Below, in pieces: positions 12,194-37,918 of a DNA stretch of 46,071 nt. This stretch comes from Parabacteroides distasonis (GTDB taxonomy: Bacteria > Bacteroidota > Bacteroidia > Bacteroidales > Tannerellaceae). Every line of letters starts with the position of its first letter. Within the stretch, counting starts at the first letter, position 1. A model generated the notes under the pieces. That model did not search any database. It saw only the letters and a program-made list of their open reading frames with translations, and was not told where the DNA came from. A program made the position numbers and the translations under genes. The stretch is taken from positions 1 to 46,071 of the forward strand of contig NZ_SRYM01000030.1 in the NCBI RefSeq assembly GCF_004793765.1, given 5' to 3'.

Positions 12194-12231
12194 ATCCGAC
12201 GACGAGACGGGATACTTCCTAAGATAACGAG

Positions 12232-16453: not shown

Positions 16454-17521
16454 TTAATGTTGTTTCTCGAACTCTTTCATGCAAGCAACCAAAGCCTCCA
16501 CGCTGCTCTTCGGCATTGCGTTATAAAGAGAGGCACGGAAACCACCTACAGAACGGTGTCCCTTGATACCTGCCATACCAGCGGCAGTAGCATATTTACA
16601 GAACTCATCCTCCAACTCCTTATACTCATCATTCATCACGAAACAAACATTCATGATCGAACGATCTTCCTCTGCTACCGTACCACGGAACAACTTATTG
16701 CGATCGATCTCATCGTATAAGATCGCTGCGTTCTCAAGATCCTTCTTCTCCATAGCGGCGATACCTCCTTGTTCCTTATACCATTTCAAGGTCTGTAAAG
16801 CCGCGTAAATAGGCAATACAGGAGGTGTATTGAACATGGAATCCTTTTTAATATGGGTAGCATAGTTCAACATGGTCGGGATCGGACGGTCTACATGCCC
16901 TAAAGCGTCCACACGAACGATAGCCAAAGTCACGCCGGCAGGAGCCAAGTTCTTTTGAGCACCCGCATAGATAATATCATATTTGGAAATATCGATCGGA
17001 CGAGAGAAAATATCGGAAGACATATCGCAAACCAAACGTTGCTTCACATCCGGATCCTTACGCATCTCTGTTCCGTAAATCGTATTATTAGAAGTAAAAT
17101 GGAAATAATCCGAGTCATCAGCGATCGCATAACCCTTCGGGATGTAAGTATAGTTCTTGTCTTTGGAAGAAGCGACAACATCTACCTCCCCAAACAACTT
17201 AGCTTCCTTGATAGCGTTCGAAGCCCATGTGCCGGTATCCAAATAAGAGGCTTTCTTATTCAACAGATTGTAAGGAACCATACAGAACTGCATGCTGGCG
17301 CCACCACCCATGAATACAACCTCATAGCCTGCCGGAACATCCAGTAATTCCTTGATCAACGCACGTGCTTCGTCGTTTACGGCTACAAACTCCTTACTTC
17401 TATGAGAGATCTCAAGAAGTGATAACCCCATACCCGCAAAATTTTCTACCGCAGCGGCTGTATTCTTAATTGTATACTCGCTCAAGATAGAAGGACCTGC
17501 ATAAAAATTGTGCTTCTTCAT
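16454..17521 (-). CDS. serC: Phosphoserine aminotransferase
   Basis: The PLP enzyme converts 3-phosphohydroxypyruvate and glutamate to phosphoserine and 2-oxoglutarate. The 355-residue protein starts '[15 protein letters not shown]' and has '[10 protein letters not shown]', '[10 protein letters not shown]' and the PLP lysine in '[12 protein letters not shown]'. It ends with '[16 protein letters not shown]', the substrate-binding tail of SerC. It is first in serC-serA-DUF1015, 17 bases ahead of serA. The length is normal and the assignment secure. Confidence 0.97.
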
Positions 17522-17653
17522 ACCAATGTCTTTTTAGAATGTTATTATAAATAAAGTAACTATTTTTTCAAAAACAGGCGGCTAATGTAACTATTTTTCC
17601 TCATTTGCCGACACTTTTCGAGCATTTTTTAATTTACAATCAGAATATGTCAA

Positions 17654-18925
17654 TTAAAAACGATTTCCCCAAAGACGCCTCATTTGCTCAATTAGTTTGT
17701 GTTCGGCCGGATTTTCCTGTCCCTTCCACAAACGTTCGCCCAAAATTTCCTTCGGAAGATATTCTTGCTTTACAAAATGATTTTCGTAGTCGTGCGCATA
17801 TTTATATTCCTTGCCATACTCCAATTCAGCCATTAATTTGGTAGGCGCATTGCGTAAATGAAGCGGTACGGGTAAATTCCCAGTCCGGTTAACAAGTGCC
17901 AAAGCGTCGTTGATCGCCATATAGGCCGAATTACTTTTCGGGCTGCAAGCCAGATAAACGGTCGTCTCGGCCAGAATGATCCGGCCCTCCGGCCAGCCGA
18001 TCTTCTTCAAGGCATCGAAACATGCGTTCGCCAGCAAAAGCGCATTCGGATTCGCCAATCCGATATCCTCAGAAGCGGAGATCACCAACCGCCGTGCGAT
18101 AAACTCAGGGTCTTCTCCCCCGGCCACCATACGGGCGAGCCAGTAAATGGCGCCATCGGGATCGCTACCCCGGATCGACTTGATAAAAGCGGAGATTATA
18201 TCGTAATGCATCTCCCCTCCCTTATCATACGCCGCAGGGTTCTCCTGCAACCTCTCCACTACCTTCTCATCCAGAATCTCAATATTGTCACTCTCCTCGG
18301 CAGACACCACCAGTTCCAGAATATTCAGCAACTTCCGGGCATCTCCTCCCGAGTAACGTAACATGGCATCCGTTTCCGTCAGCCTTATGTTTTTATCCTT
18401 CAGAACGACATCCTCGGCGATCGCCTTATGCAATAGCGTAAGCAAGTCATTCTTGTCCAGCGATTTCAACACGTACACCTGACAACGGGATAACAAAGGA
18501 CGGATTACCTCGAACGAGGGATTCTCCGTGGTTGCCCCAATCAGCGTCACCACGCCCGTCTCCACGGCGTTCAGCAATGAGTCTTGCTGCGACTTACTGA
18601 ATCGGTGTATCTCATCAATAAACAATATCGGCGATACCGTATTGAAGAAGCGGTTGCTCTTGGCCTTCTCTATCACCTCCCGCACGTCCTTCACTCCCGA
18701 ACTGATCGCGCTTAACGTATAAAAAGGCGCATCCAACTTATTCGCTATGATCTGCGCTAAGGTAGTCTTCCCGACTCCCGGCGGCCCCCACAATATAAAA
18801 GAGGGAACCCGTCCCGCATCAATCATCTTCCTCAACACGGCTCCCTGGCCTACCAGGTGCTTCTGTCCGATATAATCATCCAACGTCTTCGGACGTAATC
18901 TCTCTGCTAATGGTTGACTCATCAT
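17654..18925 (-). CDS. rarA: Replication-associated recombination protein A (AAA+ ATPase)
   Basis: RarA/MgsA is a clamp-loader-like AAA+ ATPase acting at stalled replication forks. The 423-residue protein shows 'LAERLRPKTLDDYIGQKHL', Walker A 'GPPGVGKT' (near residue 47), Walker B with sensor 'LFIDEIHRFSKSQQDSLL', and the C-terminal tetramerisation region ('MVAGGEDPEFIARRLVISASEDIGLANP', 'YKYAHDYENHFVKQEYLP') that separates RarA from RuvB and DnaX. ATG codons at 18925 and 18922 are adjacent; either could be used. It is monocistronic here. Confidence 0.96.
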   Translation of the reverse strand: MMSQPLAERLRPKTLDDYIGQKHLVGQGAVLRKMIDAGRVPSFILWGPPGVGKTTLAQIIANKLDAPFYTLSAISSGVKDVREVIEKAKSNRFFNTVSPILFIDEIHRFSKSQQDSLLNAVETGVVTLIGATTENPSFEVIRPLLSRCQVYVLKSLDKNDLLTLLHKAIAEDVVLKDKNIRLTETDAMLRYSGGDARKLLNILELVVSAEESDNIEILDEKVVERLQENPAAYDKGGEMHYDIISAFIKSIRGSDPDGAIYWLARMVAGGEDPEFIARRLVISASEDIGLANPNALLLANACFDALKKIGWPEGRIILAETTVYLACSPKSNSAYMAINDALALVNRTGNLPVPLHLRNAPTKLMAELEYGKEYKYAHDYENHFVKQEYLPKEILGERLWKGQENPAEHKLIEQMRRLWGNRF

Positions 18926-19189
18926 GGAAGCAAAAGTCGGACATTTTATTTACTTTTCAAAGGATAAGTCAAGAAATTTATCGTATAAAAAGAATGTTAA
19001 ACAACAGGAAATAGTAACATAATGAAAGAGCAATCATCACAAACACACTTTTACCCATATAATATACTAACATTATGACAATAAAAATTTAACATTCCCT
19101 TAGTTCCCTATCCTTTTTATCCCGTACTTTTAGCGATATCTTCTTAACACATTATACCTTTTTTCTTGAAGCATTAAATATCTATCAGC

Positions 19190-19267
19190 TGGTGCATGAT
19201 CGTCCAACAGTTGGTGCATGATCATGCAACGACTGTTAGATGATCATGCACCAATTGTTAGATGATC
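19190..19267. repeat. Intergenic block of inverted and direct repeats (GGTGCATGATC / GTTAGATGATC)
   Basis: In the 481-base gap between rarA and the SusD gene, ggtgcatgatc occurs twice (19191-19201 and 19213-19223) and gttagatgatc twice (19235-19245 and 19257-19267). TTGGTGCATGATCAT (19211-19225) is perfectly inverted at 19240-19254 around a 14-base loop. The block lacks a T-run, so it is not an ordinary terminator. The rest of the gap (18926-19189) is AT-rich with no gene I can support. Confidence 0.7.
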
Positions 19268-19345
19268 TATATTTCCATATAAAACCAATAAGCCTTCCAA
19301 GGAAATGGGATAAGGGAAGCTATCAAAACATGTAAGATATATAAC

Positions 19346-19380
19346 AAAAAAAGATGCCCCTCCATAATCGGAGAGGCACC
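19346..19380 (-). terminator. Terminator of the leftward SusC/SusD operon
   Basis: On the minus strand a stem (gtgcctctcc pairing with ggaggggcat) is followed by seven thymines, 27 bases after the SusD stop. Confidence 0.8.
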
Positions 19381-19406
19381 CTATACATTATATTATATAT
19401 GTTAGA

Positions 19407-20975
19407 TTAGCGAGTTCCGCCAGCCCACCATACAGGCTCTGAATATACGTATTGACCGTCGCCATAAGCGGCTTTTACTTCCGGATTTGATACCACGTCA
19501 CTATTACCATAAGGCATACGAAGAGGGAATTTTTTCGCATTCGCCAATGTCACGAAATTCTCTCCTAATCCTTTCATTCTACGGATATCATTAAAAGTCT
19601 CGGTAGCCTCTCCCGATGCTCCCCACAAAGCCAGATATTTCTGGATCATGGTCTCTTTCAAAGGATTTACAGCAAACAGCGGTTTAACTTGGTTATCGAA
19701 ATATGTATTGGCCGTCTCCTCTGTCATTTTTTCTGAATTCACGACCATTTTGCTACCCATATAAGTGATAGCAGAAGAGACACTTCTTTCAGCATTTGCG
19801 ATTCCGGCAGCTACCGCCTCTTTCAACGCTTTCTCGGCGTCAGACGTACGGTTTAAGCGACATAACGCCTCAGCTTGCAAGAATTTCAACTCATGATAAC
19901 TCATCAACATCGTAGGAGCCGTGTTTGAGTATACAAAGGCGGAAACACCATATTTCTGCATATTCTGCTCAGGAGTACCATTCGGGGCCGGAACTAAGTT
20001 CTTATCAGCAGAGCCTGTAACCTGTACGCGTTTCTTGTCAGCCGTAGTAGGAGAAAGCATCACTCTTTCCAATCGAGGATCTTTACGCTCAATCAACTTG
20101 TCCGTCAAGCTCTGGCTATTGGCAAAACCAGCGCGAGAATCGAAGTAACCAAAGAATGGGTTGATATTATTCGCATCATAGACAGCGTATGCAGCCTCGT
20201 CATCCGCAGAAGTAAAAGATTTTGATACATAGTCCAAAACCTTATTCAAGTCAGCTTGCTTATCCGTGGAACGATTGATCAGACGCATCGTATAACGAGC
20301 CTTCAAACCATAAGCGAATTTAATCCATTTCTTGGCATCTCCATTATACAAATAATCATACGTACCAACCGGTGAACGATCAGACTGATTCAAATCCTCG
20401 ATCGCCTTGTCCAAGGAGGCCATTATAGAGACATAAATCTCCTCTTGCTTATCTATTTTAGGATTCATATTCACCGGTGAGCCATTCTCATCCAATAAAG
20501 AAGCTTCACTATAAGGTGTATCTCCAAATATATCCGCCAATAGAGCGCCATTGTAAGCTTCCATGACCTCAGCGATACCTCTCGTCACTAAATTTCCCTC
20601 ATCACGCTTACCTTCTTGACATTGACCGATAATAACACGAGCGTTCTTCAAGCTTGTATAAACATTTCCCCACGCATTCTCAAACGTAGAAGAGGCAGAA
20701 GGCTCATTCAAACGAATTTCCGCGTTATATAACTGGTTTTCGATACCCACTTCATATTCCACGTAGGAAGATGAATAGGTATTGAAGTCTCCGCTAACGT
20801 TGGAAAATGCAGTAGAAGTAATCAAGTCGGCCAAGATAAATTTGCCATCCACGCTATTTGTATGGCTCGTATCTTGGTTAATCCGATCCATTACATCCTC
20901 GGAACATCCAGCCAATGCCAAGGATACGGCCGACATAACAGCCAACCCTTTAAATGATTTTATTATTGTATTCAT
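19407..20975 (-). CDS. SusD/RagB family outer-membrane lipoprotein (leftward operon)
   Basis: SusD-like lipoproteins cap the SusC pore and bind the nutrient, usually a glycan or peptide. The 522-residue protein has a lipoprotein signal ('LALAGC', then SEDVMD) and the alpha-helical repeats of the family. 'ADIFGDTPYSEA', 'DKQEEIYVSIMASLDKAIEDL', 'WIKFAYGLKARYTMRL' and 'LPLR..YGNSDVVSNPEVKAAYGDGQYV' place it in the SusD-like_2 branch. It is paralogous to the product at 28075-29604, and both end with the same WWAGGTR. It starts 22 bases after its SusC gene. Substrate unknown. Confidence 0.92.
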   Translation of the reverse strand: MNTIIKSFKGLAVMSAVSLALAGCSEDVMDRINQDTSHTNSVDGKFILADLITSTAFSNVSGDFNTYSSSYVEYEVGIENQLYNAEIRLNEPSASSTFENAWGNVYTSLKNARVIIGQCQEGKRDEGNLVTRGIAEVMEAYNGALLADIFGDTPYSEASLLDENGSPVNMNPKIDKQEEIYVSIMASLDKAIEDLNQSDRSPVGTYDYLYNGDAKKWIKFAYGLKARYTMRLINRSTDKQADLNKVLDYVSKSFTSADDEAAYAVYDANNINPFFGYFDSRAGFANSQSLTDKLIERKDPRLERVMLSPTTADKKRVQVTGSADKNLVPAPNGTPEQNMQKYGVSAFVYSNTAPTMLMSYHELKFLQAEALCRLNRTSDAEKALKEAVAAGIANAERSVSSAITYMGSKMVVNSEKMTEETANTYFDNQVKPLFAVNPLKETMIQKYLALWGASGEATETFNDIRRMKGLGENFVTLANAKKFPLRMPYGNSDVVSNPEVKAAYGDGQYVYSEPVWWAGGTR

Positions 20976-20997
20976 ATATATCTGTCTTCTTTATAAA

Positions 20998-23900
20998 TTA
21001 GAAATTTACGTTGACACCAAAACCGTAGCTAGATGTACCCGGTAAGGAGAAACGCTCGAAAGCGCCAGCCATATTGTTATTTCCTTGAGTAGCCTCCGGA
21101 TCGAAGCCTTTTATCTCAGACCATACAATGATATTACGGGCGAAAACATTCACGTTTACATTCAAGTTATCTTTCTTATATACAGGATATGACAATGAAA
21201 GTTCACGCAATTTCAAGAACGAGTTGTCATAGACATAGGCTTCGTCAATGCCCCTCACGCTTTTGAAATACTCCTCTGCATCTGATCCTTTCACTCCACC
21301 CGTATAGGGAACATAGACAGGTTTACCATCCGCATCTACGCCCTTCTGTTCAACAGCAGCATAGTCAAAATGATATTTATCACTCTTACGAACCTCTCCA
21401 GATAACTTACTTGTACCGTAGAAGTTCGTCTCACCAGCCGTACCACTATACATTTGTCCACCTTGCTTCCAGTCAAATACAGCAGCCAAACGGAATTTAT
21501 ACAACTCGATATTCGTATTGAAACCCAAACGGAAATCAGGAGAAACCTTACCGATTACTTGGGTCTCACCAGCCTCTGGTATACCTTTTTCGTTTACGAC
21601 AATTCGTCCTTCGCCATCACGTTTGTAACCAACACCATAGATTACCGGGAATTTATCGCCGATACCTGCACGTACTTGAGGAGTCACGAAACCACCCAAC
21701 ATAATGCTCTCTACGCCCGGAGCCAACTCGTCTACATAATTGTCGATCTTTGAGAAGTTAAAAGCGAAGTCCAGCTTGAAATTCTTCGTATCAACCGGAG
21801 AGATACCTAATGTAATCTCATGTACGTTTGAGTGCATCTTTCCACCATTCATCATCATACTGGAAGCACCTGTGGAGCCAGCCAAAGGCACCTCGAAGAT
21901 TTGGTCTTTCACGTTCTGACGAGAATACGTATAATTCAATGAAACTAAACCATTCAAGAAAGTCAAGTCAGCACCAAGCTCATAAGACTTCGTGTTCTGA
22001 GGCTTCAAGTTCGGATCATAAACCACGAAATAAGGAATATACGCCATATTTCCATTAATCGGATACATAATAGGTGTTCCCTGGAAGAAACCACCACCAT
22101 AACCTGGCGTATAATAATAAGACGGCACATATTCTCCTGCCATACCTACCTCTGCGTAAGAGCCACGGATCTTACCAAATGTCAAGATATCATTCTTCAA
22201 GGCTTCCACTTCCGTGAATACCCATCCAAGGGATACGGAAGGATAAAAGAACGAACGGTTATCTCTCGGCATAGAAGACACGATATCGTTACGTCCCGTA
22301 ACATTCAAATAAAGCATATTCTTCCAAGCCAAAGATAAGCTAGCGAAGTTACCTACCGTACGTTTTCTCTTATACTCATGAGAGCTGTTAAATACAGAAG
22401 CGTTGTTCAAATGGTTCCAGCCCGGGAAGTTGAAGCTATATCCCACGGCTTGAGTATTACTGATTCGCTTATCTACAAGCTCATTACCCAACAAAGCATC
22501 GAATACGAAGTCCTCATTGATATTCCAGTTATACGTAAACGTCAACAATGAGTTCATCTCATTTACCGTAAAACCGTATTCGCTAGCATAACCATTCGTA
22601 TAACCAGTTGTACCGTAGCCGTAAATATCAGAGTAATTGGTCGTATAAGCGTCATCACCAATTTGGTATTTCACATCCAATTTATGATTGTCCGTACCAA
22701 ATTTAGTAGAATACTTCAAGAACGCATTCCCGAAGAAACGTTGAGATCTCTCCGTAAAGCTATTATTGTCGCACGCCCAGTTTCCATCATCGATCCAGTT
22801 CTCACGGAACGTATTCTGAGTATAAGGATCACCTTCGATATGGGAAGGTATGCCCGCCATAGTATAACTGATAGGAGCCGTATAAACCGTAGCGGTAACA
22901 CCGTCATTAGCGGTTCCTTGCTCTTGATCTTTGATGTCACGAAGTTTCCGTTAAAACCAGTCGTCCAGTTATCATGCAATTGTGCCTCACCCGACAGCTT
23001 CACGTTATAACGATCCATTCCCGTAGAACGAACGATACCATCAGAAGTCGTATTACCCAAAGAGAATGAATAGTTTCCTTTATCGAAAGACTGAGCTACA
23101 TTCACGGAGTTACTCCAAGTAACGCCAGTCTGGAAGAAATCCTTCGCATTATTATAAGCTTGGGGAGTAGCCCATGGATCCAATCCTGCCGCAGCACGCT
23201 GAGGCACATAGTATTGTCCATTATGCAATCCACCTTTCGTATATTCATTTTGTACATTACCGCCATATACAGGATCATTCGCCAAGTCAGAGATAGACGG
23301 TCCCCAGCTAAATCCCGAATATGGGTTATAAGCACCTTCATTACCTTGTCCATATTCAGTTTGTAACTCAGGTAATGTAGAAACCTTATCAAACGCAAGA
23401 TTCGTGTTGAATGAGATCTGAGGTTTTCCTTTACGAGCACCTTTTCCGCTCTTTGTAGTAATAACGATCACTCCATTAGAAGCACGCATACCATACAACG
23501 CAGAAGCGGCTTGTCCTTTCAAAATGTTGATACTCTCGATATCGTTCGGATCTAAGTCTACGGCACGGTTCGCATAGTCAGCTCCACTAACGCTACCATT
23601 ATTCATCGTATCCGTATTAACATCCGCCGTAGATGCGATCGGCATACCATCGATCACATACAAAGGAGAGTTATCCCCTGTAAATGAACGGGCTCCACGG
23701 ATCATGATCTTGGAAGATGCGCCTGGCATACCCGATGAGGAAGCGATATCGATACCGGATACTTTACCTTGCAAAGCCCCAGACAAACTAGTGTTAGCAC
23801 CTTGTGTTAACTCATCCGATTTTACATCTTGCACGGCATAACCTAAAGCTTTCTTTTCCTTTGAGATACCCATAGCCGTAACCACGACCTCATCCAAGTT

Positions 23901-24194
23901 TTGGGTATCAGACATCAATGTTACATTTACATTGGGAGACACAACTACCTCCTTGGATTTCATACCGATGTATGAAATAACTAATTGCTTACCATCACTA
24001 GGAACATCCAAAGTAAAATTACCGTCAAAATCCGTAACTGTTCCCACAGTCGTTCCTTTTACGATAATGGACGCACCGATCACCGGCTCACCATCTTCTC
24101 CGACTACCTTACCGGTAACCTTCGAGGTCTGTGCCGAAACTACTCCTACGCTCATCGCAAGAAATAGTAGCACAGAAGTCAACTTTTTCTTCAT
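20998..24194 (-). pseudogene. Frameshifted SusC-type TonB-dependent receptor (leftward operon)
   Basis: Read across one frameshift, this is a SusC porin of about 1060 residues: signal peptide, carboxypeptidase-like N-terminal domain ('KVTGKVVGEDGEPVIGAS'), TonB-box region 'NLDEVVVTAMG', plug, and a barrel ending in phenylalanine ('GFGVNVNF'). The upstream frame goes wrong after 'NGNFVTSKIKS'; the correct frame resumes at once as 'DQEQGTANDGVTATVY'. Comparison with the intact paralogue at 24886 puts the break near 22920-22935, consistent with loss of one base (or 3n+1 bases). ATG 24194 (MKKKLTS) is preferred to the GTG at 24200. Its promoter side faces the invertible segment 24253-24818, in which I see no leftward promoter. 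A sequencing error cannot be excluded. Confidence 0.88.
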
Positions 24195-24252
24195 AGACAC
24201 ATTCTTTTTATTTAAACTAAACTAGAAATTCAATTAAGCTTTCGTGGACTAT

Positions 24253-24269
24253 AGTTCATACAGAACTAC
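24253..24269 (+). repeat. Inverted repeat, left arm of invertible segment 1
   Basis: The arm agttcatacagaactac is the exact reverse complement of 24802-24818. It lies 58 bases upstream of the leftward SusC ATG. The arm itself is partly palindromic (AGTTC..GAACT), as expected for a tyrosine-recombinase crossover site with two binding half-sites. Confidence 0.85.
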
Positions 24270-24725
24270 CAATTTTCAATATTTTATTTAGTGTAGTCAT
24301 ATGAAAAAAAATTATCATATAAGTTTAGATCTATTAAAATTCTGTAATAAATATATTGGATTTGAGAGATATTGTTTATCAGCCATATTGGGAGGATAAG
24401 AAAAGCCAGCCGTTTTTCACAAATATCTACATAAAATAAAGTTGTAAATATTTTTAGTGATAAGCTATATGCTATAAAATATCCAGAATAAGTTGATATC
24501 AAGTCCAATATCATGCCTATAAAGAGTAAGCTCACTATTTGTTACGATAAAATTAAGATAAAAATAATTTTTTTATTTGTCAAAAAGAAACTATCGGCAG
24601 CGATAACTCATTGATTTGTGATACGATCATGTCACCTGAGTCGATTTAGACAGTGGTTATATTGCAAATTGACAGATTTAACAATTAAGAAAACAAAGGA
24701 AATATATCACAATAATAATAATTTG

Positions 24726-24756
24726 TTGTTTTTTTCAGGTATAATTTATAGTTTTG
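24726..24756 (+). promoter_or_regulatory. Rightward promoter inside invertible segment 1
   Basis: TTG (24726-24728), a 20-base spacer and TAGTTTTG (24749-24756) match the Bacteroidetes consensus closely. Transcription would begin near 24763, run through the right repeat arm and reach the SusC ATG at 24886. In this orientation the rightward operon is predicted ON. Confidence 0.7.
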
Positions 24757-24801
24757 CAACCGTTTTTCATTTAATAGGTATGTCGTAAAACATAAAATGG
24801 A

Positions 24802-24818
24802 GTAGTTCTGTATGAACT
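24802..24818 (-). repeat. Inverted repeat, right arm of invertible segment 1
   Basis: The arm gtagttctgtatgaact is the exact reverse complement of 24253-24269; identity stops at both edges. It lies 67 bases upstream of the rightward SusC ATG, within the transcribed leader. Confidence 0.85.
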
Positions 24819-24885
24819 TAGTTAATCAACCATTAAAATGCAGAGAAAACATTTTTAAGTATATAGTTAATAAATAAGTGTGTTT

Positions 24886-27800
24886 ATGAAGAAAAAGTTG
24901 ACTTCTGTGCTACTATTTCTTGCATTGAGTGCAGGTGTGGTTTCAGCACAGACCTCGAAGGTTACCGGTAAGGTAATTGGGGAAGATGGAGAGCCGGTGA
25001 TCGGTGCCTCTATTATCGTAAAAGGGACAACCGTGGGAACAGTCACGGATTTTGATGGAAACTTTGAACTAGAAGTACCTGCGAATGGTAAACAATTGGT
25101 TATTTCATACATCGGTATGAAATCTCAAGAAGTTGCGGCCACTTCTAATGTAAATGTAAAACTATTAGCCGATACCCAGAACTTGGATGAAGTCGTGGTT
25201 ACGGCTATGGGTATCTCAAAGGAAAAGAAAGCTTTAGGTTATGCGGTTCAAGATGTGAAAGCGGATGAGTTGACGAAAGGAGCTAATACTAGTTTGTCTG
25301 GCGCATTACAAGGTAAGGTTTCTGGAGTGGAGATCTCTCCTTCTTCCGGTATGCCGGGTGCCTCTTCTAAGATCACGATTCGTGGTTCCAGATCTTTTAC
25401 AGGGGATAATACTCCTTTGTATGTGATTGACGGTATGCCTGTCGCTTCAACGGCTGATGTGGACACCGGTAGTTCTGTTTCCGGTACGGACTTTGCATCT
25501 CGTGCGGTGGATATCGATCCAAACGATATTGAAAGCATTAATATATTAAAGGGACAGGCCGCATCTGCCTTGTATGGTATGCGTGCAACAAATGGAGTAA
25601 TTGTCATTACGACCAAAAGTGGAAAGGGAGCCCGTAAAGGTAAACCTCAGGTCGCTTTTAATACCAGCTTATCTTTTGATAAGGTTTCAACGATGCCTGA
25701 ATACCAAAAAGTGTATGCGCAGGGTACAAATGGCAAGTATAGCCCGTATGCTTCAACTTCTTGGGGACCACTAATCAGCGAATTGCCTAACGATCCGACT
25801 TATGGAGGAAATACGGATAATGAGTTTACCAAGCAATATGGTAAGCATGAAGGTATGTATTATGTACCTCAGCGGGCCGCTGCGGGATTAGACCCTTGGG
25901 CTCAACCACAAGCTTACGACAATATCAAGGATTTCTTCAACGTGGGTACGACATGGAGTAACTCCGTGAATGTAGCTCAAGCTTTTGATAAAGGTAACTA
26001 TTCCTTCTCGATCGGTAATACTACGCAAGATGGTATTATTCCAAATACAGGCATGGACCGATACAACGCAAAAATGAGTGCCGAAGCTCAATTACACAAG
26101 AACTGGTCTACTGGATTTAACGGTACCTATGTAAATTCGAAGATCAGCAAGCAGTCTAGTGCCAATAATGGAATCTTAGCTACTGTTTACGGAGCTCCTT
26201 CTAGCTACGATTTAGCCGGTATCCCAAGTCATGTTGAGGGTGACCCGTATACACAAAATACATTCCGTAGCACATCAGGTTTTGACGGAGCTTATTGGGC
26301 GGTAGATAACAACGAGTTCTTGGAACGTTCACAACGTTTCTTTGGAAATACTTATTTGAAATATTCTACGAAGTTCAATACCGATAATCACAAATTGGAT
26401 GTCAAGTATCAATTGGGTGTGGACTCTTATACGACTAATTATACGGATTCTTGGGGTTATGGACATGCAAATGGTTATGGAGAGATTGATCACTATGGAT
26501 ATTCAATCACGGAGTTGAACTCTTTGTTGACCGCTGCATATACTTGGAATATCAATGAAGATTGGTTGTTCGATGCCCTTGTTGGTAATGAATTGGTAGA
26601 GAATCAGCGGAAATTTTACGAGTCTTATGGAGCGAACTATAACTTCCCGGGTTGGAATCATATAGATAATGCTACAACTATGGTAGCATCCGAGTCATTA
26701 CGCCGGAAACGCACAGTTGGTAACTTTGCTAGCATTTCATTGTCTTACGCTAACATGGTTTACTTCAACGCAACTGTTCGTAACGATATCGTATCTAATA
26801 TGCCTCGTAACAACCGCTCATTCACTTATCCATCTGTTTCCTTGGGCTGGATTTTCACAGAATTAGAACCATTGAAGAATAATGTCTTGACTTATGGTAA
26901 ATTACGTGCTTCTTACGCCGAAGTAGGACAGGCTGGAGATTATTATGATTCTTATTATACTACACCTGTTTACGGTGGTGGTTTTTATGGTTCTACGCCT
27001 ATACAATATCCTATGAGTGGAATTACGGCGTTCACTCCATATGCTCGTGTGTATGATCCGAATTTGAAACCTCAGAACACGAAGTCTTATGAGTTAGGTG
27101 TGGATTTGACCTTCTTGAATGGTCTGTTCTCATTGAACTATACCTTCTCTCGGCAGAATGTGAAAGATCAGATATTTGAGGTTCCTTTGGCTGGTTCTAC
27201 AGGCTCTGCAGAATTAGTAACCAATGGTGGCGCTATCCATACGAACGCTCATGAGATTACGTTGGGAATCAATCCGATCAATACGAAGAATTTTAAATGG
27301 GATATGGCATTTAACTTCTCTAAGATCGATAACTACGTAGATGAGCTGGCTCCGGGTGTAGAGAGTATTTTCTTGGGAGGTTTCGTTGATCCGCAGGTAC
27401 GTGCGAATATTGGCGATAAATTCCCTGTAATCTATGGTACGACTTTCTTGCGTAATGACAACGGTGACATTGTCGTAGACGAAGATGGCTTGCCTCAGAT
27501 CGGTAGTGAGGGTGTGATCGGTAAGGTTTCCCCGGATTTCCTCTTGGGTTTCAATACTAATTTTGAGATCTACAAATTCCGTATCGGTGCTACGTTCGAT
27601 TGGAAATGTGGTGGACAGATGTATAGCGGTACATTGAACACGTTGAACTATTATGGTACAAGTATGGAGTCTGTTGAAAGTCGTACGGCCGAGACTTTCC
27701 GTTTTAGTCATCCGGCTGTAAAGCAGTTGGAAGATGGTTCCTATGTAGCTAATGACATAGATATCAAAGGCGAAGACGCTTTATCATATTATGACCGCAT

Positions 27801-28059
27801 GACGCTTATTTCCGAAGCTGGTATCTATGACAGTGGTTTCTTGAAACTACGTGAGTTGTCCGTTAGTTATCCAATATGGGATAAGAATGGAATCAACGTG
27901 AACTTAAATGTTTTTGCCAGAAATATCATTCTTTGGTCTGAGTTGAAAGGTTTGGATCCTGAGGCTTCTCAAGGTAATAATAATATGGGCGGTGGCTTCG
28001 AGCGCTTTTCTATGCCGGGTGCTTCGAGCTATGGCTTCGGTTTAAATGTGAAATTCTAA
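24886..28059 (+). CDS. SusC-type TonB-dependent outer-membrane receptor (rightward operon)
   Basis: This intact SusC porin of about 1057 residues imports a substrate through the outer membrane using TonB energy. A signal peptide (cleavage after 'VVSAQ') is followed by the carboxypeptidase-regulatory-like domain (about residues 23-105), a TonB-box region 'NLDEVVVTAMGISKEKKALGYAVQ', and the plug with 'LYVIDGMP' and 'LKGQAASALYGMRATNGVIVITTKSGK'. The 22-strand barrel ends 'YGFGLNVKF'. ATG 24886 is chosen over the GTG at 24880, since MKKKLTS aligns with both other SusC starts. It is closely paralogous to the broken copy at 20998-24194. The promoter inside segment 1 faces it. Confidence 0.95.
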   Translation: MKKKLTSVLLFLALSAGVVSAQTSKVTGKVIGEDGEPVIGASIIVKGTTVGTVTDFDGNFELEVPANGKQLVISYIGMKSQEVAATSNVNVKLLADTQNLDEVVVTAMGISKEKKALGYAVQDVKADELTKGANTSLSGALQGKVSGVEISPSSGMPGASSKITIRGSRSFTGDNTPLYVIDGMPVASTADVDTGSSVSGTDFASRAVDIDPNDIESINILKGQAASALYGMRATNGVIVITTKSGKGARKGKPQVAFNTSLSFDKVSTMPEYQKVYAQGTNGKYSPYASTSWGPLISELPNDPTYGGNTDNEFTKQYGKHEGMYYVPQRAAAGLDPWAQPQAYDNIKDFFNVGTTWSNSVNVAQAFDKGNYSFSIGNTTQDGIIPNTGMDRYNAKMSAEAQLHKNWSTGFNGTYVNSKISKQSSANNGILATVYGAPSSYDLAGIPSHVEGDPYTQNTFRSTSGFDGAYWAVDNNEFLERSQRFFGNTYLKYSTKFNTDNHKLDVKYQLGVDSYTTNYTDSWGYGHANGYGEIDHYGYSITELNSLLTAAYTWNINEDWLFDALVGNELVENQRKFYESYGANYNFPGWNHIDNATTMVASESLRRKRTVGNFASISLSYANMVYFNATVRNDIVSNMPRNNRSFTYPSVSLGWIFTELEPLKNNVLTYGKLRASYAEVGQAGDYYDSYYTTPVYGGGFYGSTPIQYPMSGITAFTPYARVYDPNLKPQNTKSYELGVDLTFLNGLFSLNYTFSRQNVKDQIFEVPLAGSTGSAELVTNGGAIHTNAHEITLGINPINTKNFKWDMAFNFSKIDNYVDELAPGVESIFLGGFVDPQVRANIGDKFPVIYGTTFLRNDNGDIVVDEDGLPQIGSEGVIGKVSPDFLLGFNTNFEIYKFRIGATFDWKCGGQMYSGTLNTLNYYGTSMESVESRTAETFRFSHPAVKQLEDGSYVANDIDIKGEDALSYYDRMTLISEAGIYDSGFLKLRELSVSYPIWDKNGINVNLNVFARNIILWSELKGLDPEASQGNNNMGGGFERFSMPGASSYGFGLNVKF

Positions 28060-28074
28060 TAAAGGAAACAAAAG

Positions 28075-29604
28075 ATGAAACTTCAAAATATCTCAAAAAA
28101 ATTATTGACGGGAGTTGTTTTCACCGCAGCCTTGGTCTCTTGCTCTGAGGATAAGATGGATGAGATCAACAAAGATCATAATCATACCACAGCAGTTCCC
28201 GCAAAGATGATCCTTACGGATGTCATGACTTCGACTGCGTTTAGCGTGGTTAGCGGCGATTTCAATTTATATGGTGGTATGTATGTGGAACATGAGACAG
28301 GTTCGCATAATCAATTCTACTATGCGGAAACCCGTTCTTCTTGTACATCGGCTTCTACCTTTAATAACTCATGGGGGGGAACCTATTCGACACTGAAAGA
28401 TGCTTTGACCTCAGTCAAAATCGCAGAAGAAGAGCAGAACTTCATAACAAAAGGCATTGCGGAACTTTTCGTAGCTTACAATTTGGCGATCTTGACAGAT
28501 ATGTATGGTGATACACCTTGGAAAGAGGCTTGTGACTATACAGTATCTATGACTCCCGCTATCGATAAACAAGAGGAGATTTATAAGGATATCATGGCCT
28601 ATGTGGATGCCGCAATTGAAGATCTTCAGAAATCAGATCTGACGAGCCTGTCTAATCAAGATTTGATTTATAAAGGTGACGCTTCGGCTTGGCTAAAGAC
28701 AGCTTATGGCTTGAAGGCTCGTTATACAATGCGCTTGATGGGACGTAGCGCTGATGTTAAGAGCGATATGGAAAAGGTGTTGGATTATGTTTCCAAGTCG
28801 TACACCTCGGCAGCCGAGCAATGTAGCTATGCTATGTATGGTGTGGGTGTTAATATCAACCCATTTTTCGGAGTATTCTATTCTCGTTTAGGTGAGGTAG
28901 CCAGCCGAAGTATGTTTGATAAATTGAATGAGCGTAATGATCCACGTATCAGACGTTGCTATGTAGAGGCTAACAGCCAAACGATGATTGCTTCTAAGGA
29001 TGATCCATTATTGAATCTTGCTCATAATGGTGATTTAGTGCAAAGTCAGTTAGAATATACTGTTTCCATGTTCTGTGCAGCTCAAACCGCTCCGACTCAC
29101 ATCTTAAGTTATCATGAGGTATTGTTCTTGAAGGCAGAGGCTTTGTGTCGTTTAAATCGTAAGGATGAGGCAAAAGCAGTGTTGAAAGAGGCTGTTGTCG
29201 CAGGTATGGCTAATATGGAGGTTAATATCAAGTCTGCCCTCGCTTCTGATTATTGGGGAGGTTTCTTGAATGTAACAAACGAGGTGACACCGGAGGAGGC
29301 CGCTTCTTACTTTGATGAGAATGTCGCTCCCTTATTCGATGCTAATCCTTTGAAAGAGACGATGATTCAGAAATATATTTCTTTCTGGAACGCAGATGGA
29401 GAGTCTACCGAGTGCTATAATGACGTACGTCGTTTGAAGAGCTTGGGTGAGGATATTTATGGCTTGCAAAATCCGGGTAAGTTCCCGTTAAGATGTCCGT
29501 ATGGTAATGATGATACTACGACTAATCCTAATATACAAGCTGCTTATGGTGATGGTCAGTATGTGTTTACCGAAAACGTATGGTGGGCTGGCGGAACTCG
29601 CTAA
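28075..29604 (+). CDS. SusD/RagB family outer-membrane lipoprotein (rightward operon)
   Basis: The 509-residue partner of the preceding SusC begins 15 bases after its stop. The lipoprotein signal ends 'AALVSC', followed by SEDKMDE. Family elements include 'LTDMYGDTPWKEA', 'DKQEEIYKDIMAYVDAAIEDL', 'WLKTAYGLKARYTMRLMGRS' and the C-terminal 'YGDGQYVFTENVWWAGGTR'. It is a clear paralogue of the leftward SusD, but the loop regions differ (for example after 'VEHETGSHNQFYYAE'), so ligand preference may differ. Substrate unknown. Confidence 0.94.
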   Translation: MKLQNISKKLLTGVVFTAALVSCSEDKMDEINKDHNHTTAVPAKMILTDVMTSTAFSVVSGDFNLYGGMYVEHETGSHNQFYYAETRSSCTSASTFNNSWGGTYSTLKDALTSVKIAEEEQNFITKGIAELFVAYNLAILTDMYGDTPWKEACDYTVSMTPAIDKQEEIYKDIMAYVDAAIEDLQKSDLTSLSNQDLIYKGDASAWLKTAYGLKARYTMRLMGRSADVKSDMEKVLDYVSKSYTSAAEQCSYAMYGVGVNINPFFGVFYSRLGEVASRSMFDKLNERNDPRIRRCYVEANSQTMIASKDDPLLNLAHNGDLVQSQLEYTVSMFCAAQTAPTHILSYHEVLFLKAEALCRLNRKDEAKAVLKEAVVAGMANMEVNIKSALASDYWGGFLNVTNEVTPEEAASYFDENVAPLFDANPLKETMIQKYISFWNADGESTECYNDVRRLKSLGEDIYGLQNPGKFPLRCPYGNDDTTTNPNIQAAYGDGQYVFTENVWWAGGTR

Positions 29605-29641
29605 TCAATATATAAAAGCATAACGAGTGACAACATTCAAA

Positions 29642-29680
29642 AAAGGGGAAGAATATCTTAATGATATTTTTCTCCTTTCT
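29642..29680. terminator. Terminator between the rightward SusD and the recombinase
   Basis: The arms aaaggggaagaatatc and gatatttttctccttt pair with two wobble positions around ttaat, with A and T tracts on either side. It fits as a shared terminator for two convergent genes. Confidence 0.75.
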
Positions 29681-29694
29681 TATAAATCCACATT

Positions 29695-30873
29695 CTAGCC
29701 GAACTTCAATCGTGTCTCAATCTTCTCAAGATCGCGGACAATCGTCATATCCATGATATTGCTATAGATCTCGGTAGTACGAACACTTTTATGCCCTAAC
29801 AACTTTTGTACCGTAGTTATATTCGCTCCATTATATAATAATAAGGTAGCATTTGTATGCCGAGCCGTATGAAAAGATACCTTCTTATCAATACTTGCCA
29901 ATTGGCTGATTCGGCGTAATTGCTTATTCACGTTTGAATTAGAGGATAAGGGAACACCAAACAGGGTTCTCGGCGCATTCTTATATCGCTCATAGATAGG
30001 TAAAGATTTACCCTCGAACAAGAGGAATAGCGGCAAACGGACACTCACATCTGTCTTCACCGATGAATAAACCAGCCAAACCTTATCATCAATAATCAAA
30101 AAGTTCTCTTTCGTTATACTTACTATGTCTGAGAAACGTAATCCCGTGTAGCAACTAAATAAAAACATATCCAGACACCGGCGCAATGTACGCTGCCCAT
30201 CCAGCTTTAAGTTTTCCAAACGACCTAACTCCTCAGGCGTTAAATGAGTACGCTTACTCTCTTGATATTTAATCTTATATTTCCGAAATGGATATTTGTG
30301 CAACTCGAACAACTCCTTATTAATCGCCAAGTTGATATATCGTTTCAAATGCTTCATATGTTTAGCGATCGTATTTCGATGATACTCCTGCTTCAATAAA
30401 AAATATTCAAAATCGCATAAGAAATTGAAATTAATATCCTTAAACAGAACGTCCTTCTTGTATAAGGATAGAACATGCAAAGTGGACAAATGGTTTTTTA
30501 ACGTCGATTCTTTTAAATTACTATGTAAAATCTCCTCACGCATGAAAACAAGAAAAGAGGAAGACGTAGATGTCGAAGAGGTCTCCTCACGCAGATCCTT
30601 CAACGAAAAACCGTTATTCGCTTGTCTCTTCTCCAGCTCATCTCTCTCCAACTCCATAACATAGTTCTGAAGATACAGGTTTAACGCATCCATATTCGGA
30701 TGATTCTTTATGGAACGTCTTTTGTTGTCCCATTGACAAGGTTTCACATAAACCTTCGTTGAAAAATACCTCTTTTGCCTATTCAGATAGGCCTCTACTT
30801 GAATCAAAGCTTTTCCTTCCGCATTCAGTTGCTTTTTTCGATTAAACACTAAGTTATAAATTACTTTTTCCAT
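29695..30873 (-). CDS. Tyrosine site-specific recombinase, candidate promoter invertase
   Basis: From ATG 30873 (MEKVIYNLVFNRKK) the protein is 392 residues. It has an N-terminal arm-type DNA-binding domain (about 1-85), a SAM-like core-binding domain (about 105-200), and a complete catalytic domain: Arg246 in 'TGLRFSD', probable Lys273, His335 and Arg338 in 'HTARH', His361 in 'LGHKS', and Tyr370 in 'EIYSNI'. Such enzymes in Bacteroidales are found on mobile elements and as Tsr-type invertases of phase-variable surface loci. No transfer genes, excisionase or attachment sites accompany it, and it lies between two predicted invertible promoters with related repeats, which favours the invertase role. 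The longer frame to 30942 begins before a likely regulatory palindrome and is not preferred. Confidence 0.9.
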   Translation of the reverse strand: MEKVIYNLVFNRKKQLNAEGKALIQVEAYLNRQKRYFSTKVYVKPCQWDNKRRSIKNHPNMDALNLYLQNYVMELERDELEKRQANNGFSLKDLREETSSTSTSSSFLVFMREEILHSNLKESTLKNHLSTLHVLSLYKKDVLFKDINFNFLCDFEYFLLKQEYHRNTIAKHMKHLKRYINLAINKELFELHKYPFRKYKIKYQESKRTHLTPEELGRLENLKLDGQRTLRRCLDMFLFSCYTGLRFSDIVSITKENFLIIDDKVWLVYSSVKTDVSVRLPLFLLFEGKSLPIYERYKNAPRTLFGVPLSSNSNVNKQLRRISQLASIDKKVSFHTARHTNATLLLYNGANITTVQKLLGHKSVRTTEIYSNIMDMTIVRDLEKIETRLKFG

Positions 30874-30930
30874 GGTACTGATACATTTATTATTATCTGA
30901 TTGTAAACACGAAGGAACAATAATAAGTTC

Positions 30931-30950
30931 TTTGTAGCACAAACTACAAA
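30931..30950. promoter_or_regulatory. Palindrome upstream of the recombinase gene
   Basis: TTTGTAG (30931-30937) and CTACAAA (30944-30950) form an inverted repeat with a 6-base spacer, 58 bases upstream of the recombinase ATG. It could be an operator or a recombinase binding site. The adjoining agttcttt...aaacta echoes the segment 2 arm, but with a longer centre. Confidence 0.4.
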
Positions 30951-31055
30951 CTAAAAGTTTGTTATCACGGGTACCAACTAATAAAAAAACATGTATCCAA
31001 GAAAAAAAGAATCTTCCAAATACATGGCAAACCCAATTTTTCTATCAGATTTCCA

Positions 31056-32516
31056 CTAAAAATCAATAATCTTCACTAGCTCGAACCGCTTGTCTACGCA
31101 AGCGGGTAATTCATGCGGGTAATGGGTTACGTAAATCAAGGTTTTCCCCGGACGATCGCAGAATTGCTCGATAATAGCAGCCGCCTTTTTCTTATTGCTC
31201 ACATCCAGACCGTGGAGAGGCTCATCTAATATAATTAAATCGGGGTCTTTCACGAAAGCTCTCACTAATAAAGCCAAACGTTGTTCTCCCGATGATAAGG
31301 TCAAGAATAAACGATCTTTCAAATGTTTGATACCAAAAACTTTCATCCACTCCAAGGCAACCGTTTCTTGTTCGGTATTACACTTACGAAACAAGCCGAT
31401 CGAATCGAAAAATCCGGAACCTACAATATTCAAGGTAGGAACATTCTCTTTATAATATAAGTGCATCTCCGGCGATACATATCCGATACGCTTCTTGATA
31501 TCCCAAATACTTTCTCCGGAACCTCTCTTTCTATCAAACAAATACAACGTATTCGCATATGATTGAGGATTATCCGCATAAACCAAACTCAGCAAGGTAG
31601 ATTTACCAGCACCATTCGGACCAAATAACGCCCACTTCTCTCCGTTCTTGATTTCCCAATCCAAGTCTTTTAAGATCGTGCGGCTACCATAGCGTATCCT
31701 TACACGTTCCATGCGTAAAGTCACCTCATGGGAAGAGGCTATTTTGTTCATATCCACAGGTAAACAAACCTTACCAACTTCCTCGCACGCATGAATGCCT
31801 TCCGTTGGAAAAAGACGGGTGATTAATTCCGTATCCGTCATAAACTCCTCTCGAGTCAGCGGAGGCAAGCAAGTACGATCATGGATAGGCAATACATGCG
31901 TGATCACAGCCGGTATGTCCTTGGGATTGGATAATAATAAAACGACCTGCACTCCATTCAAATTCGTCATCTGCCCCAACATTTCTACCAATAAATCCCG
32001 GGATGGAGCGTCTAAGCCGATAAAAGGATTATCTAAAATCAAAACACGAGGACGACTAAGCAACGCCCGGACAATCAATAATTTTCGCAATTCACCACTT
32101 GATAAGAATATCAACCGCTTAGGTAATAAATCCTCTATACCGAAAAGAGTCAATATCTTCGCTAAATTATCAGAGCCAGCATATTCCTTCAACAATTCCT
32201 CGACTGTAGGCATCTCATCCGTCTCTGTCGAATGCCAACGTTGTTGGTAATAAGAATTCCGGCAATCTGCTAATGAATATATATCTTTAAACGCTATACT
32301 TTTGATAAAATCACAGACATTCCCGTCTCCTGCGAATACAACCTCCCCTTTCTTAAAAGCGAATTTCCGTTGCATAATGTCTGCTATCAAAGTTTTTCCA
32401 GCGCCATTCGGACCTATCACGGTCCATTGTTGTCCTTCATCAATCCGCCAATTCACGGGTGCCGTAAAACGTAATTCCGGTAAACGGGTAACGATATTCT
32501 TGATATTGATGACCAT
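31056..32516 (-). CDS. Tandem ABC ATPase, ModF-like, without membrane domain
   Basis: The product of about 486 residues is two fused ABC nucleotide-binding domains with no membrane segment, as in ModF/PhrA-like proteins whose cellular role is unclear. Domain 1 has Walker A 'GPNGAGKT', signature 'LSSGELRKL' and Walker B 'VLILDNP'. Domain 2 has 'GPNGAGKS', 'LSSGEQRLALLVRAF' and 'LIILDEPLHGLD'. Domain 1 thus has Asn where the catalytic Glu normally stands, so the two ATP sites are probably unequal. ATG 32516 (MVINIKNIV) has a good ribosome-binding site (aaggaaag); ATG 32534 is an alternative. The start at 32564 is excluded because the -7 promoter box lies at 32554-32561. It is not obviously part of either SusC/SusD operon. 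Confidence 0.85.
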   Translation of the reverse strand: MVINIKNIVTRLPELRFTAPVNWRIDEGQQWTVIGPNGAGKTLIADIMQRKFAFKKGEVVFAGDGNVCDFIKSIAFKDIYSLADCRNSYYQQRWHSTETDEMPTVEELLKEYAGSDNLAKILTLFGIEDLLPKRLIFLSSGELRKLLIVRALLSRPRVLILDNPFIGLDAPSRDLLVEMLGQMTNLNGVQVVLLLSNPKDIPAVITHVLPIHDRTCLPPLTREEFMTDTELITRLFPTEGIHACEEVGKVCLPVDMNKIASSHEVTLRMERVRIRYGSRTILKDLDWEIKNGEKWALFGPNGAGKSTLLSLVYADNPQSYANTLYLFDRKRGSGESIWDIKKRIGYVSPEMHLYYKENVPTLNIVGSGFFDSIGLFRKCNTEQETVALEWMKVFGIKHLKDRLFLTLSSGEQRLALLVRAFVKDPDLIILDEPLHGLDVSNKKKAAAIIEQFCDRPGKTLIYVTHYPHELPACVDKRFELVKIIDF

Positions 32517-32553
32517 CTTTCCTTCTTTTTCCATACTTTCTAAATAAACGGAG

Positions 32554-32561
32554 CAAAGGTA
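32554..32561 (-). promoter_or_regulatory. -7 element of the tandem ABC ATPase gene
   Basis: On the minus strand this reads TACCTTTG followed by C, an exact TAnnTTTG match. Transcription would start near 32547, just upstream of the 32534 and 32516 start codons, which helps fix the true start. Confidence 0.5.
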
Positions 32562-32594
32562 CATAGTTTATTTAAGAATGACAGCATAATGGCA

Positions 32595-32626
32595 AAAAAG
32601 GGGACTACTCGTCACGAGCAGTCCCC
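32595..32626 (-). terminator. Terminator of the third SusC/SusD operon
   Basis: The arms ggggactactcgt (32600-32612) and acgagcagtcccc (32614-32626) pair with one wobble. On the minus strand the stem runs into six thymines, 43 bases after the SusD stop. Confidence 0.85.
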
Positions 32627-32668
32627 CTATAGTATACAGGCACTTGGTCTGTCTATGTTTACTAGTAG

Positions 32669-34189
32669 TTAATGAACGCCTGTACGTGTATCCCACCACA
32701 TTTGTTTACCCCAAAAATTATCTACAACCTCAGCGTTAAACGGCGCATTATTTGTTTTGTTCAACGAAAGCTCCGTATTCGGATAAGGAGAACGGAAAGG
32801 AGGCACATTATGATTCGCATATTTAGTGGCACGTCCCGGAGCGATATAATGAGTCTCGGGAACACCCGTACGACGATACAAAGACCATCCTTCCATGGCT
32901 TGCTTGAACATCGCCACCCACTCCTCGTACCAGATTTGCCTCATGTCGTTCTTAAACTTCCCGGCACCTGCCATATAAACCTCTATAGCGTCTTCCGCTA
33001 CTCCATTTTCCTCCAAAGAAAAGCGAACCGCCTTATTATAGGCCTCCTCCGCAGTCATACCCTTCGTGTTATATCCCAGTTTCGCTGCCTCTGCAATATG
33101 GAAATAAACCTCAGCTACACGCATGTAAGGAGAGAAACCACCTAAATCAACACCATACCGATACCCCCATACGGAATAAAGGCGAGAAGGAGGATTGGAT
33201 GCCGCCCCGATCGTATAACCGCGATAAACCGGGGTTCCATCCGTATAATCGCTCTCCGTATCCCCCTCGGAAGGAGGAGTTTGGCTAGACGGTGTCGGCA
33301 TACAATAAATCGAGATACGCGGGTCTTTATTCTCCAACAAATAATTCACCATCACGTCGGAACAACAGAACTCAGACTTACGCGTACGGTATGCGTCAGC
33401 TATCGGCTCGTAGTAATTGCCATCGCCTCCCAACCACCAGAAGAACGCATTGTCATCGTTATCCTTCATGACCGGGTAACTAACAGGATCAGCCAGCACC
33501 TCTTCCACAGTCTGCTGGGCCAAAACTGGACTTACCTCAGAGATACGGATCGCTAAACGCAAACGCAAGGAGTTGCAATACTTCTGCCACTTCAGCATAT
33601 CGCCATGAAACAATAAGTCGCCACTACTAATATCATCGTCGCCACCGGCTGCGAACCCATCAGCCGCCTCTTTCAATTTCGCCAGCAAAGCCGGATAAAT
33701 ATCCTCTTGCTTGTCATACTTCGGAGTCAACACGCCAGCGGCCATCTTGACTGCGTCAGAATAGGGAACATCGCGCCAACGATCCGTAGCGATCTGGATC
33801 ACGTGCGCCTCCAACACCTTGGCCACGTTCAACATATTCGGGGAAGCTTCCGAACGTCTTTGGATATCCATCACATTGTTAAGCACACGGTAAATATGCT
33901 CCCAGTTCGTATCTTGCACACCCGGACGGAACAGATAACGGGCCTCATCTATATAACTCATCTTGGCTACATATCCACCAAACGACATAGGCTCATCCAT
34001 AGCGAACCAACGATCATAAAAACGATAGGAAGTGTTATATAAGGAATATGCCAACAAATTCTCGGTCGGCACATTTTCCGCATTATCAGGATCTGTATTC
34101 ACTTCCTCGAAGGAATCCGTACATCCTACCATGAACAATGAAGACAAGGCCACACACGCCGTACTTATATTTTTAATATATTTTTTCAT
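32669..34189 (-). CDS. SusD/RagB family outer-membrane lipoprotein (third operon)
   Basis: The 506-residue SusD-like protein has a lipoprotein signal ('LFMVGC', then TDSFEEVNTDP). It shows the family elements 'VIQIATDRWRDVPYSDAV', 'DKQEDIYPALLAKLKEAADGF' and 'KYCNSLRLRLAIRISEV', with a C-terminal 'FWGKQMWWDTRTGVH'. It differs clearly from the two paralogues at 19407 and 28075, so this operon probably serves another substrate. It starts 30 bases after the SusC stop and is followed by a strong terminator. Confidence 0.93.
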   Translation of the reverse strand: MKKYIKNISTACVALSSLFMVGCTDSFEEVNTDPDNAENVPTENLLAYSLYNTSYRFYDRWFAMDEPMSFGGYVAKMSYIDEARYLFRPGVQDTNWEHIYRVLNNVMDIQRRSEASPNMLNVAKVLEAHVIQIATDRWRDVPYSDAVKMAAGVLTPKYDKQEDIYPALLAKLKEAADGFAAGGDDDISSGDLLFHGDMLKWQKYCNSLRLRLAIRISEVSPVLAQQTVEEVLADPVSYPVMKDNDDNAFFWWLGGDGNYYEPIADAYRTRKSEFCCSDVMVNYLLENKDPRISIYCMPTPSSQTPPSEGDTESDYTDGTPVYRGYTIGAASNPPSRLYSVWGYRYGVDLGGFSPYMRVAEVYFHIAEAAKLGYNTKGMTAEEAYNKAVRFSLEENGVAEDAIEVYMAGAGKFKNDMRQIWYEEWVAMFKQAMEGWSLYRRTGVPETHYIAPGRATKYANHNVPPFRSPYPNTELSLNKTNNAPFNAEVVDNFWGKQMWWDTRTGVH

Positions 34190-37470: not shown

Positions 37471-37494
37471 CATAGTTTATGAAGAACTATTTCC
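37471..37494 (+). repeat. Inverted repeat, left arm of invertible segment 2
   Basis: These 24 bases are the exact reverse complement of 37895-37918; identity stops at both edges. The core agtttatgaagaactat matches the segment 1 arm at 13 of 17 positions in the same inward orientation. It lies 50 bases upstream of the SusC ATG. Confidence 0.9.
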
Positions 37495-37593
37495 AATATC
37501 AAATAGATTATAGATGTATCATGTAAAATCACATCAAGGCAAACAGCCTTATTTTTACAAAATAAATACATAATCAGCATGATCTTCACTTTG

Positions 37594-37626
37594 CAAATAT
37601 ATGAAATATTTTTTATTAAAAACAAA
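37594..37626 (-). promoter_or_regulatory. Leftward promoter inside invertible segment 2
   Basis: On the minus strand, TTTG (37623-37626) is followed after 21 bases by TATATTTG (37594-37601), an excellent Bacteroidetes promoter. Transcription would start near 37587 and pass through the left repeat arm into the SusC gene. Confidence 0.7.
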
Positions 37627-37894
37627 TAAATACACAATCTAATGTTATCATAACATCATTCATTGAAGCAAAAAGATATTTACAGAGATTAAAAACAAAC
37701 ATTTTATCATTGTAAAAATATCATAATATCACAAAACAAACCTTCCTATTGTTATTTTCAGTTCATCTTCCTCTCCAAAGCGAAGAATATACAGGTTTTT
37801 AATATCATTTTAACAGATTTATAGATATCAGTAAAAAAAGAGGGTTAATTTCTATAGTTCATTACTTTTATCACATTTTACCTGTGACTATAAA

Positions 37895-37918
37895 GGAAAT
37901 AGTTCTTCATAAACTATG
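37895..37918 (-). repeat. Inverted repeat, right arm of invertible segment 2
   Basis: Exact 24-base reverse complement of 37471-37494. It includes agttcttcataaact, with no coding start next to it on the right. Confidence 0.9.

Follow-up and report, generated by a model that had tools for sequence, protein, structure and literature searches.

A candidate invertible promoter between two head-to-head SusC/SusD operons of Parabacteroides distasonis, found in opposite orientations in related genomes

The window, a 46,071-nucleotide stretch of DNA from Parabacteroides distasonis (contig NZ_SRYM01000030.1), carries two head-to-head SusC/SusD operons that flank a segment of 566 bp, both of its perfect 17-bp inverted-repeat arms included, and a gene for a tyrosine recombinase that converges with the right operon. 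The features of the locus are as follows:

19407..20975, minus strand: left SusD-like protein (PF12771)
20998..22860, minus strand: left SusC, C-terminal part, in another frame
22716..24194, minus strand: left SusC, N-terminal part, frameshift-broken in this assembly
24253..24269, plus strand: left inverted-repeat arm, AGTTC-ATACA-GAACT-AC (AGTTCATACAGAACTAC), predicted recombinase crossover site
24270..24801, no strand: interior of the predicted invertible segment, agreeing with genome G016 at 532 of 532 bases after reversal
24407..24445, plus strand: partial second copy of the promoter leader, matching D4 and D3 and lacking an exact promoter match
24726..24756, plus strand: predicted promoter, TTG (24726-24728), N20 and TAGTTTTG (24749-24756), directed at the right operon as assembled here
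24802..24818, minus strand: right inverted-repeat arm, complementary to the left one at every base
24886..28059, plus strand: intact right SusC (TIGR04056), towards which the promoter points in the window orientation
28075..29604, plus strand: right SusD-like protein (PF12771)
29695..30942, minus strand: tyrosine recombinase (Arm-DNA-bind_5, Phage_int_SAM_5, Phage_integrase)

That the two operons are paralogous had been claimed in an earlier note on this DNA, and the comparison of their products bears it out. The left and right SusC proteins, both taken from the genome G016, are identical at 762 of 1071 positions (71%), and this identity is unevenly distributed, with 93% over the first 60 columns and 48-52% over columns 540-599 and 900-1019; in the SusD pair, 270 of 525 positions agree. 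Alternative receptors or alternative antigens would be expected to be related yet diverged in this manner. The closest solved structures to the right operon are BT_2264 (5fq6) for SusC and 3fdh for SusD, and of the 21 window proteins scanned none was recognised as a glycoside hydrolase; a protein with a Peptidase C10 (streptopain-family) domain is encoded at 12882-13607. Relative to its G016 homologue, which is intact (1067 aa) as is the left SusD there, the left SusC of the window (20998-24194) differs by a one-base indel outside any long repeat tract. Slippage-type phase variation was rejected on account of that position; the frameshift is either a mutation or an assembly error, and the flipped state in the window's genome or assembly may consequently be without a full receptor, the left SusC being broken.

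The arms and the length of the segment were re-found as first described. The inner 15 bp of each arm form the palindrome AGTTC-N5-GAACT. Just two copies of the arm occur in the window at up to three mismatches, a number reached in none of 100 shuffles, and the 4.21-Mb genome holds, at up to two mismatches, these two exact copies and two more with two mismatches each. The latter were dropped, as the stretches surrounding them gave no nucleotide match to window positions 17001-33000. The segment had also been called gene-free, and its only ORF of at least 80 aa lying wholly inside (83 aa, 24284-24535, minus strand) is without supporting evidence and was not recognised as a gene.

Invertible promoters of gut Bacteroidales consist, according to the available text of one report, of a promoter between short inverted repeats with a -7 box of the form TAnnTTTG (PMC4747536). 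Short perfect repeats around an intergenic segment and a promoter of the Bacteroidales type within it are both found here. The promoter at 24726-24756, which had been singled out as the one strong promoter, facing right, contains the sole exact TANNTTTG of the segment on either strand; it is predicted to be active. Promoter and leader are alike at seven aligned loci (the window, G016, G001, G050, G005, G042 and G012, the first two being identical), where AATTTGTTG is kept with one change (G050), the TAnnTTTG -7 box with one change (G005), and the start of the leader is likewise conserved. The partial leader copy at 24407..24445 is a possible relic. The absence of a leftward consensus promoter, also asserted previously, holds for exact matches, none of which points leftward between 24200 and 24886, but not for weaker ones: five-of-six near-matches to the promoter box lie on both strands, and a weak leftward promoter may exist within the segment.

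The segment was used as a query against 41 genomes, of which seven matched, the window's own included. The assembly of G016 consists of one contig (4,811,379 bases), and the window belongs to a draft of 177 contigs. All 566 of 566 bases agree with G016 when the segment is reversed, versus 58% when it is not, while beyond either arm the two genomes agree at 200/200 bases, in collinear order. Outer flanks of 50 bases, one from each side, are just 50% alike when compared with each other, which places the exchange at the arms. The SusC that the promoter faces in G016 is the intact homologue of the left one, and the flipped -7 box lies 120 bases from its ATG, as compared with 129 bases between the -7 box and the ATG of the right SusC (24886) in the window, in agreement with the prediction that inversion would leave the promoter at a similar distance from either start codon. 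The G016 locus is approximately 99% identical to the window over 7.3 kb to the left and 6.3 kb to the right, as far as compared; window positions 4000-12200 are only 96-97% identical to G016, and the higher identity at the switch locus suggests that this locus was recently exchanged, or that the flip is recent.

A second pair of genomes, G042 and G012, presents a comparable situation. In both, two head-to-head SusC genes adjoin the recombinase and are bounded by AGTTCTATCAGAACT pairs; their left SusC proteins share 94% identity, and from the recombinase onward the DNA runs collinear (83% over 6.1 kb). Within the segment, alignment to G012 covers 281 of the 479 bases of G042 when one of the two is reversed, at 73%; with both read the same way it is limited to the arm regions. 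The sole exact box of the G012 segment faces left, and the G042 box homologous to the window promoter faces right. One exact TANNTTTG also occurs on the other strand in G042, so the two-ended, one-promoter reading is less clean there. Comparing orientation in related genomes had been proposed as a check on inversion, and both orientations between the same flanks, as in known Bacteroidales invertible promoters, were thus encountered between genomes, G016 being reversed relative to the window and G042 opposed to G012. As a separate observation, G012 carries three sites with the same spacer (L042 9102, 9510 and 11086), the third of which precedes another SusC; two of its SusC proteins share an identical 400-residue N-terminal part, one being truncated, in what resembles a small shufflon-like extension.

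From these comparisons of sequence, the segment very probably flips, with the cell making one receptor or the other. The most serious competing explanation is an on/off switch of the right operon only, with the left operon decaying or served by a promoter of its own and no either/or choice involved. The frameshift in the left SusC of the window would fit such decay, as would G001, which keeps the right operon, the promoter and one arm and is without a partner. Against this, both left genes are intact in G016 with the promoter facing them, no exact leftward box was found that could serve the left operon, and SusC genes also stand on both sides of recombinase-linked sites in G042, G012 and the MAG SIG124. 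An on/off switch of one operon consequently seems improbable, though worth keeping in mind. In SIG124 (L068 1941-2562) the sites lie within SusC coding sequence: the N-terminus of one SusC is inside the segment, and the opposite SusC is homologous only from approximately residue 65, such that a flip would pass start and N-terminus to that gene. Exact boxes are present on both strands of the SIG124 segment.

The earlier note had offered a regulator-binding site in each leader as an alternative to inversion; under that reading, the inverted arrangement of the arms would merely reflect the divergence of the operons. The 15-bp core is indeed an operator-like palindrome, and each copy is situated in a leader. 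The family of AGTTC-N5-GAACT sites in the genus speaks to the question. The core was searched for in 38 genomes, and pair statistics were drawn from 11 genomes with site lists, which are not a random draw, using 50 of the 54 sites of G018 (P. gordonii) and all sites of the others, G004, G044 and G011 among them. Neighbouring sites no more than 2 kb apart formed 37 pairs, 34 of which were inverted with identical spacers; the remaining three comprised one direct pair with the same spacer (G012) and two unmatched pairs (G004 and G018). Excluding G018, 17 of 19 pairs were inverted and spacer-matched. When spacers were shuffled within genomes, matched pairs averaged 0.70 and never exceeded 4 in 2000 runs. 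Since the N5 spacer differs between pairs and matches within them, as strand exchange would demand and an operator would not, the sites are better understood as recombinase crossover sites. Together with the exact reversal of the G016 segment between its arms, this led us to reject the regulator-site reading, which we regard as very unlikely.

Homologous, RecA-type recombination between the 5' ends of the SusC genes would have long imperfect inverted repeats to work with, as arms of 409 nt that are 84% complementary flank the segment. Arms of 17 bp are too short for efficient homologous recombination. The collinearity of G016 outside the arms and the dissimilarity of the outer flanks place the exchange in or near these short arms, and with junctions of such precision this route was also rejected and has hardly any probability left. 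Least probable of all is that the segment was wrongly oriented in one of the two assemblies, to which the draft state of the window lends some colour and to which the single contig of G016 and the opposed second species pair run counter; an assembler choosing between orientations would itself suggest that both were present.

The site family extends to a second predicted invertible segment in the window:

37471..37499, plus strand: left arm of the second predicted invertible segment, core AGTTTATGAAGAACT
37594..37601, minus strand: -7 box TATATTTG inside the second segment, facing SusC3 (34220-37426)
37890..37918, minus strand: right arm of the second predicted invertible segment

This segment (37471-37918) measures 442 bp between core ends, and no reversed copy of it was present among its matches in G001, G016 and G050. 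Neither it, the left SusC frameshift nor the adjoining recombinase had figured in the earlier note. Close by, at 38017-38084, the two 30-nt halves of an inverted repeat match perfectly around an 8-nt loop; other parts of the genome and other species contain pieces resembling it, and it is a repeat element or a terminator. Sites are abundant in G018, with 54 cores as compared with 2 for a reversed-pattern control and at least 17 spacer-matched inverted pairs. An exact TANNTTTG is held by 13 of these 17 segments (a count made without a chance control), and eight adjoin a SusC homologue. By a crude ORF rule, genes point away on both sides in seven of the 17, on one side in nine and on neither in one, and two-ended arrangements may be common. 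The spacers TTGCA and ATACA are shared among some pairs of G018, which would make larger rearrangements possible. Several contigs begin within approximately 60 bases of a core site (G041 C77:6 and C143:4; G004 C220:2 and C353:45; G018 C2:20; G044 C300:43), which fits assemblies broken by mixed orientations, albeit without a chance control.

The product of 29695-30942, in which the usual C-terminal motifs HTARH, LLGH and IYS are present and whose start is probably an internal ATG giving 392 aa, was proposed as the flippase because of its proximity, and it is rather likely to be the enzyme that inverts the segment. Spacer-matched pairs occur within approximately 6 kb of the recombinase in six of 33 scanned genomes (the window, G016, G012, G042, MAG SIG124 and MAG MI.5_5), the other 27 neighbourhoods being without a pair; no site pair was found in the examined recombinase neighbourhood of G018, with its wealth of core sites. 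At E<=1e-60 the recombinase is matched in 25 of the 38 genomes of the genus. Genomes judged by eye to be site-rich (10 or more core sites, exceeding the control count more than threefold) numbered seven among these 25 and two among the 13 without a strong match, a difference too small to convince. The two are G044, which has a 71% fragment at a contig end, and G004, where three site pairs stand without a close recombinase (approximately 30% identity at best). In an order-wide search, three of 149 genomes gave a match at E<=1e-80, and two of the three belong to Parabacteroides, numbers too small to speak to the link outside the family. The gene mgsA lies near the recombinase in 16 of 22 neighbourhoods (L015, L016 and L040-L059). 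No SusC match separates the two in 12 of the 22 (in 11 they are within approximately 300 bp, in one approximately 2 kb apart), and SusC genes lie between them in four (G016, G001, G050 and G005). In the window (17654-18925) and its relatives, SusC is either between recombinase and mgsA or not, as if this were an insertion slot.

Taking the evidence together, we hold with good confidence that the 566-bp segment is a promoter cassette inverted by a recombinase, with its single promoter driving either the right or the left SusC/SusD operon. As a proposed mechanism, a tyrosine recombinase, for which the product of 29695-30942 is the likeliest candidate, would bind both AGTTC-N5-GAACT sites, and strand exchange within their identical 5-bp spacers would invert the DNA between them. 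The promoter would thereby be directed to the right operon, as in the window, or to the left, as in G016, roughly 129 or 120 bases from the respective start codon, and one paralogous receptor pair would be transcribed at a time with the other left promoterless. Expression would then be exclusive to one operon, the silent operon presumably having no other promoter, and flipping would be frequent and reversible within one strain; these last points are inferred from compared sequences.

Among known systems, the nearest is that of B. fragilis, where a single tyrosine recombinase, Tsr0667 (BF0667), flips SusC/SusD clusters and nine other regions, according to the available text of two reports (PMC4747536; PMC11852207). 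The gene adjoining the right operon of the window likewise encodes a tyrosine recombinase, the likeness seen here being at the family level. Whereas the B. fragilis SusC/SusD clusters are described as multi-site shufflons, here one pair of sites would move the promoter only, from one to the other of two complete, divergent operons; two exact sites were found at the window locus, rather than several per SusC/SusD cluster, and three in G012. The missing shufflon at the window locus does not exclude the Tsr0667 type, because that enzyme flips other regions too. The consensus of Tsr0667 sites is reportedly AGTYYYN4GDACT, which the window site fits when read as AGTTCTGTATGAACT, the opposite reading failing at the sixth base. 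The Hin system of Salmonella is an invertible promoter that provides a choice between two surface proteins, has its serine recombinase inside the segment and acts via a repressor. The choice between alternative surface proteins is alike in the two, but the window segment contains no recognised gene; a serine recombinase within it was not found, the 83-aa ORF being the only one of at least 80 aa wholly inside, and the neighbouring enzyme is a tyrosine recombinase. The latter also distinguishes the locus from Mpi, a serine recombinase. Moreover, Mpi, Tsr19 and the PhaseFinder invertons serve one operon in the available text of their descriptions, whereas the window segment faces an operon at both ends. 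In the Region EE shufflon (ragA/susC) of B. fragilis NCTC 9343, inversion picks the SusC/SusD pair to stand behind one promoter (PMC5729914, available text); there, as far as that text describes it, genes are brought to the promoter by repeats lying over the start codon, and here the promoter would be brought to the genes. SIG124, with its sites inside SusC coding sequence, is intermediate between Region EE and the window.

For P. distasonis, numerous inversion sites are mentioned in the available text of one report (PMC5903667), and PhaseFinder was run on this species according to that of another (PMC10939037). The literature on this or similar loci, taken without the supplementary tables of the screens, gave no description of the present locus, and it is quite possible that the segment is already listed in earlier genome-wide screens. 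The locus represents a variant form of the SusC/SusD inversions already known for the Tsr0667 type, from which it differs by its promoter-only, two-ended form with both states seen. More tentatively, and with the odds somewhat against so broad a scheme, one conserved Parabacteroides tyrosine recombinase, often encoded next to mgsA, may serve flip sites throughout the genome, the 5-bp spacer acting as an address such that only partners with the same spacer recombine. The recombinase-linked locus would then be an exchangeable slot for head-to-head SusC/SusD pairs that differ between species and are governed by one two-ended promoter switch, ranging from promoter-only (window, G016, G042 and G012) to promoter plus signal peptide (SIG124).

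The paired genomes supply the exact junctions of the inversion, and from the spacer-matched site family a set of candidate flip loci throughout Parabacteroides can be taken directly. On/off switching is the usual interpretation of invertible promoters in gut Bacteroidales. If the switch described here is two-ended, one of two receptors would always be available and the function never lost, and the population would hedge between a pair of nutrients, or a pair of phage or immune targets.
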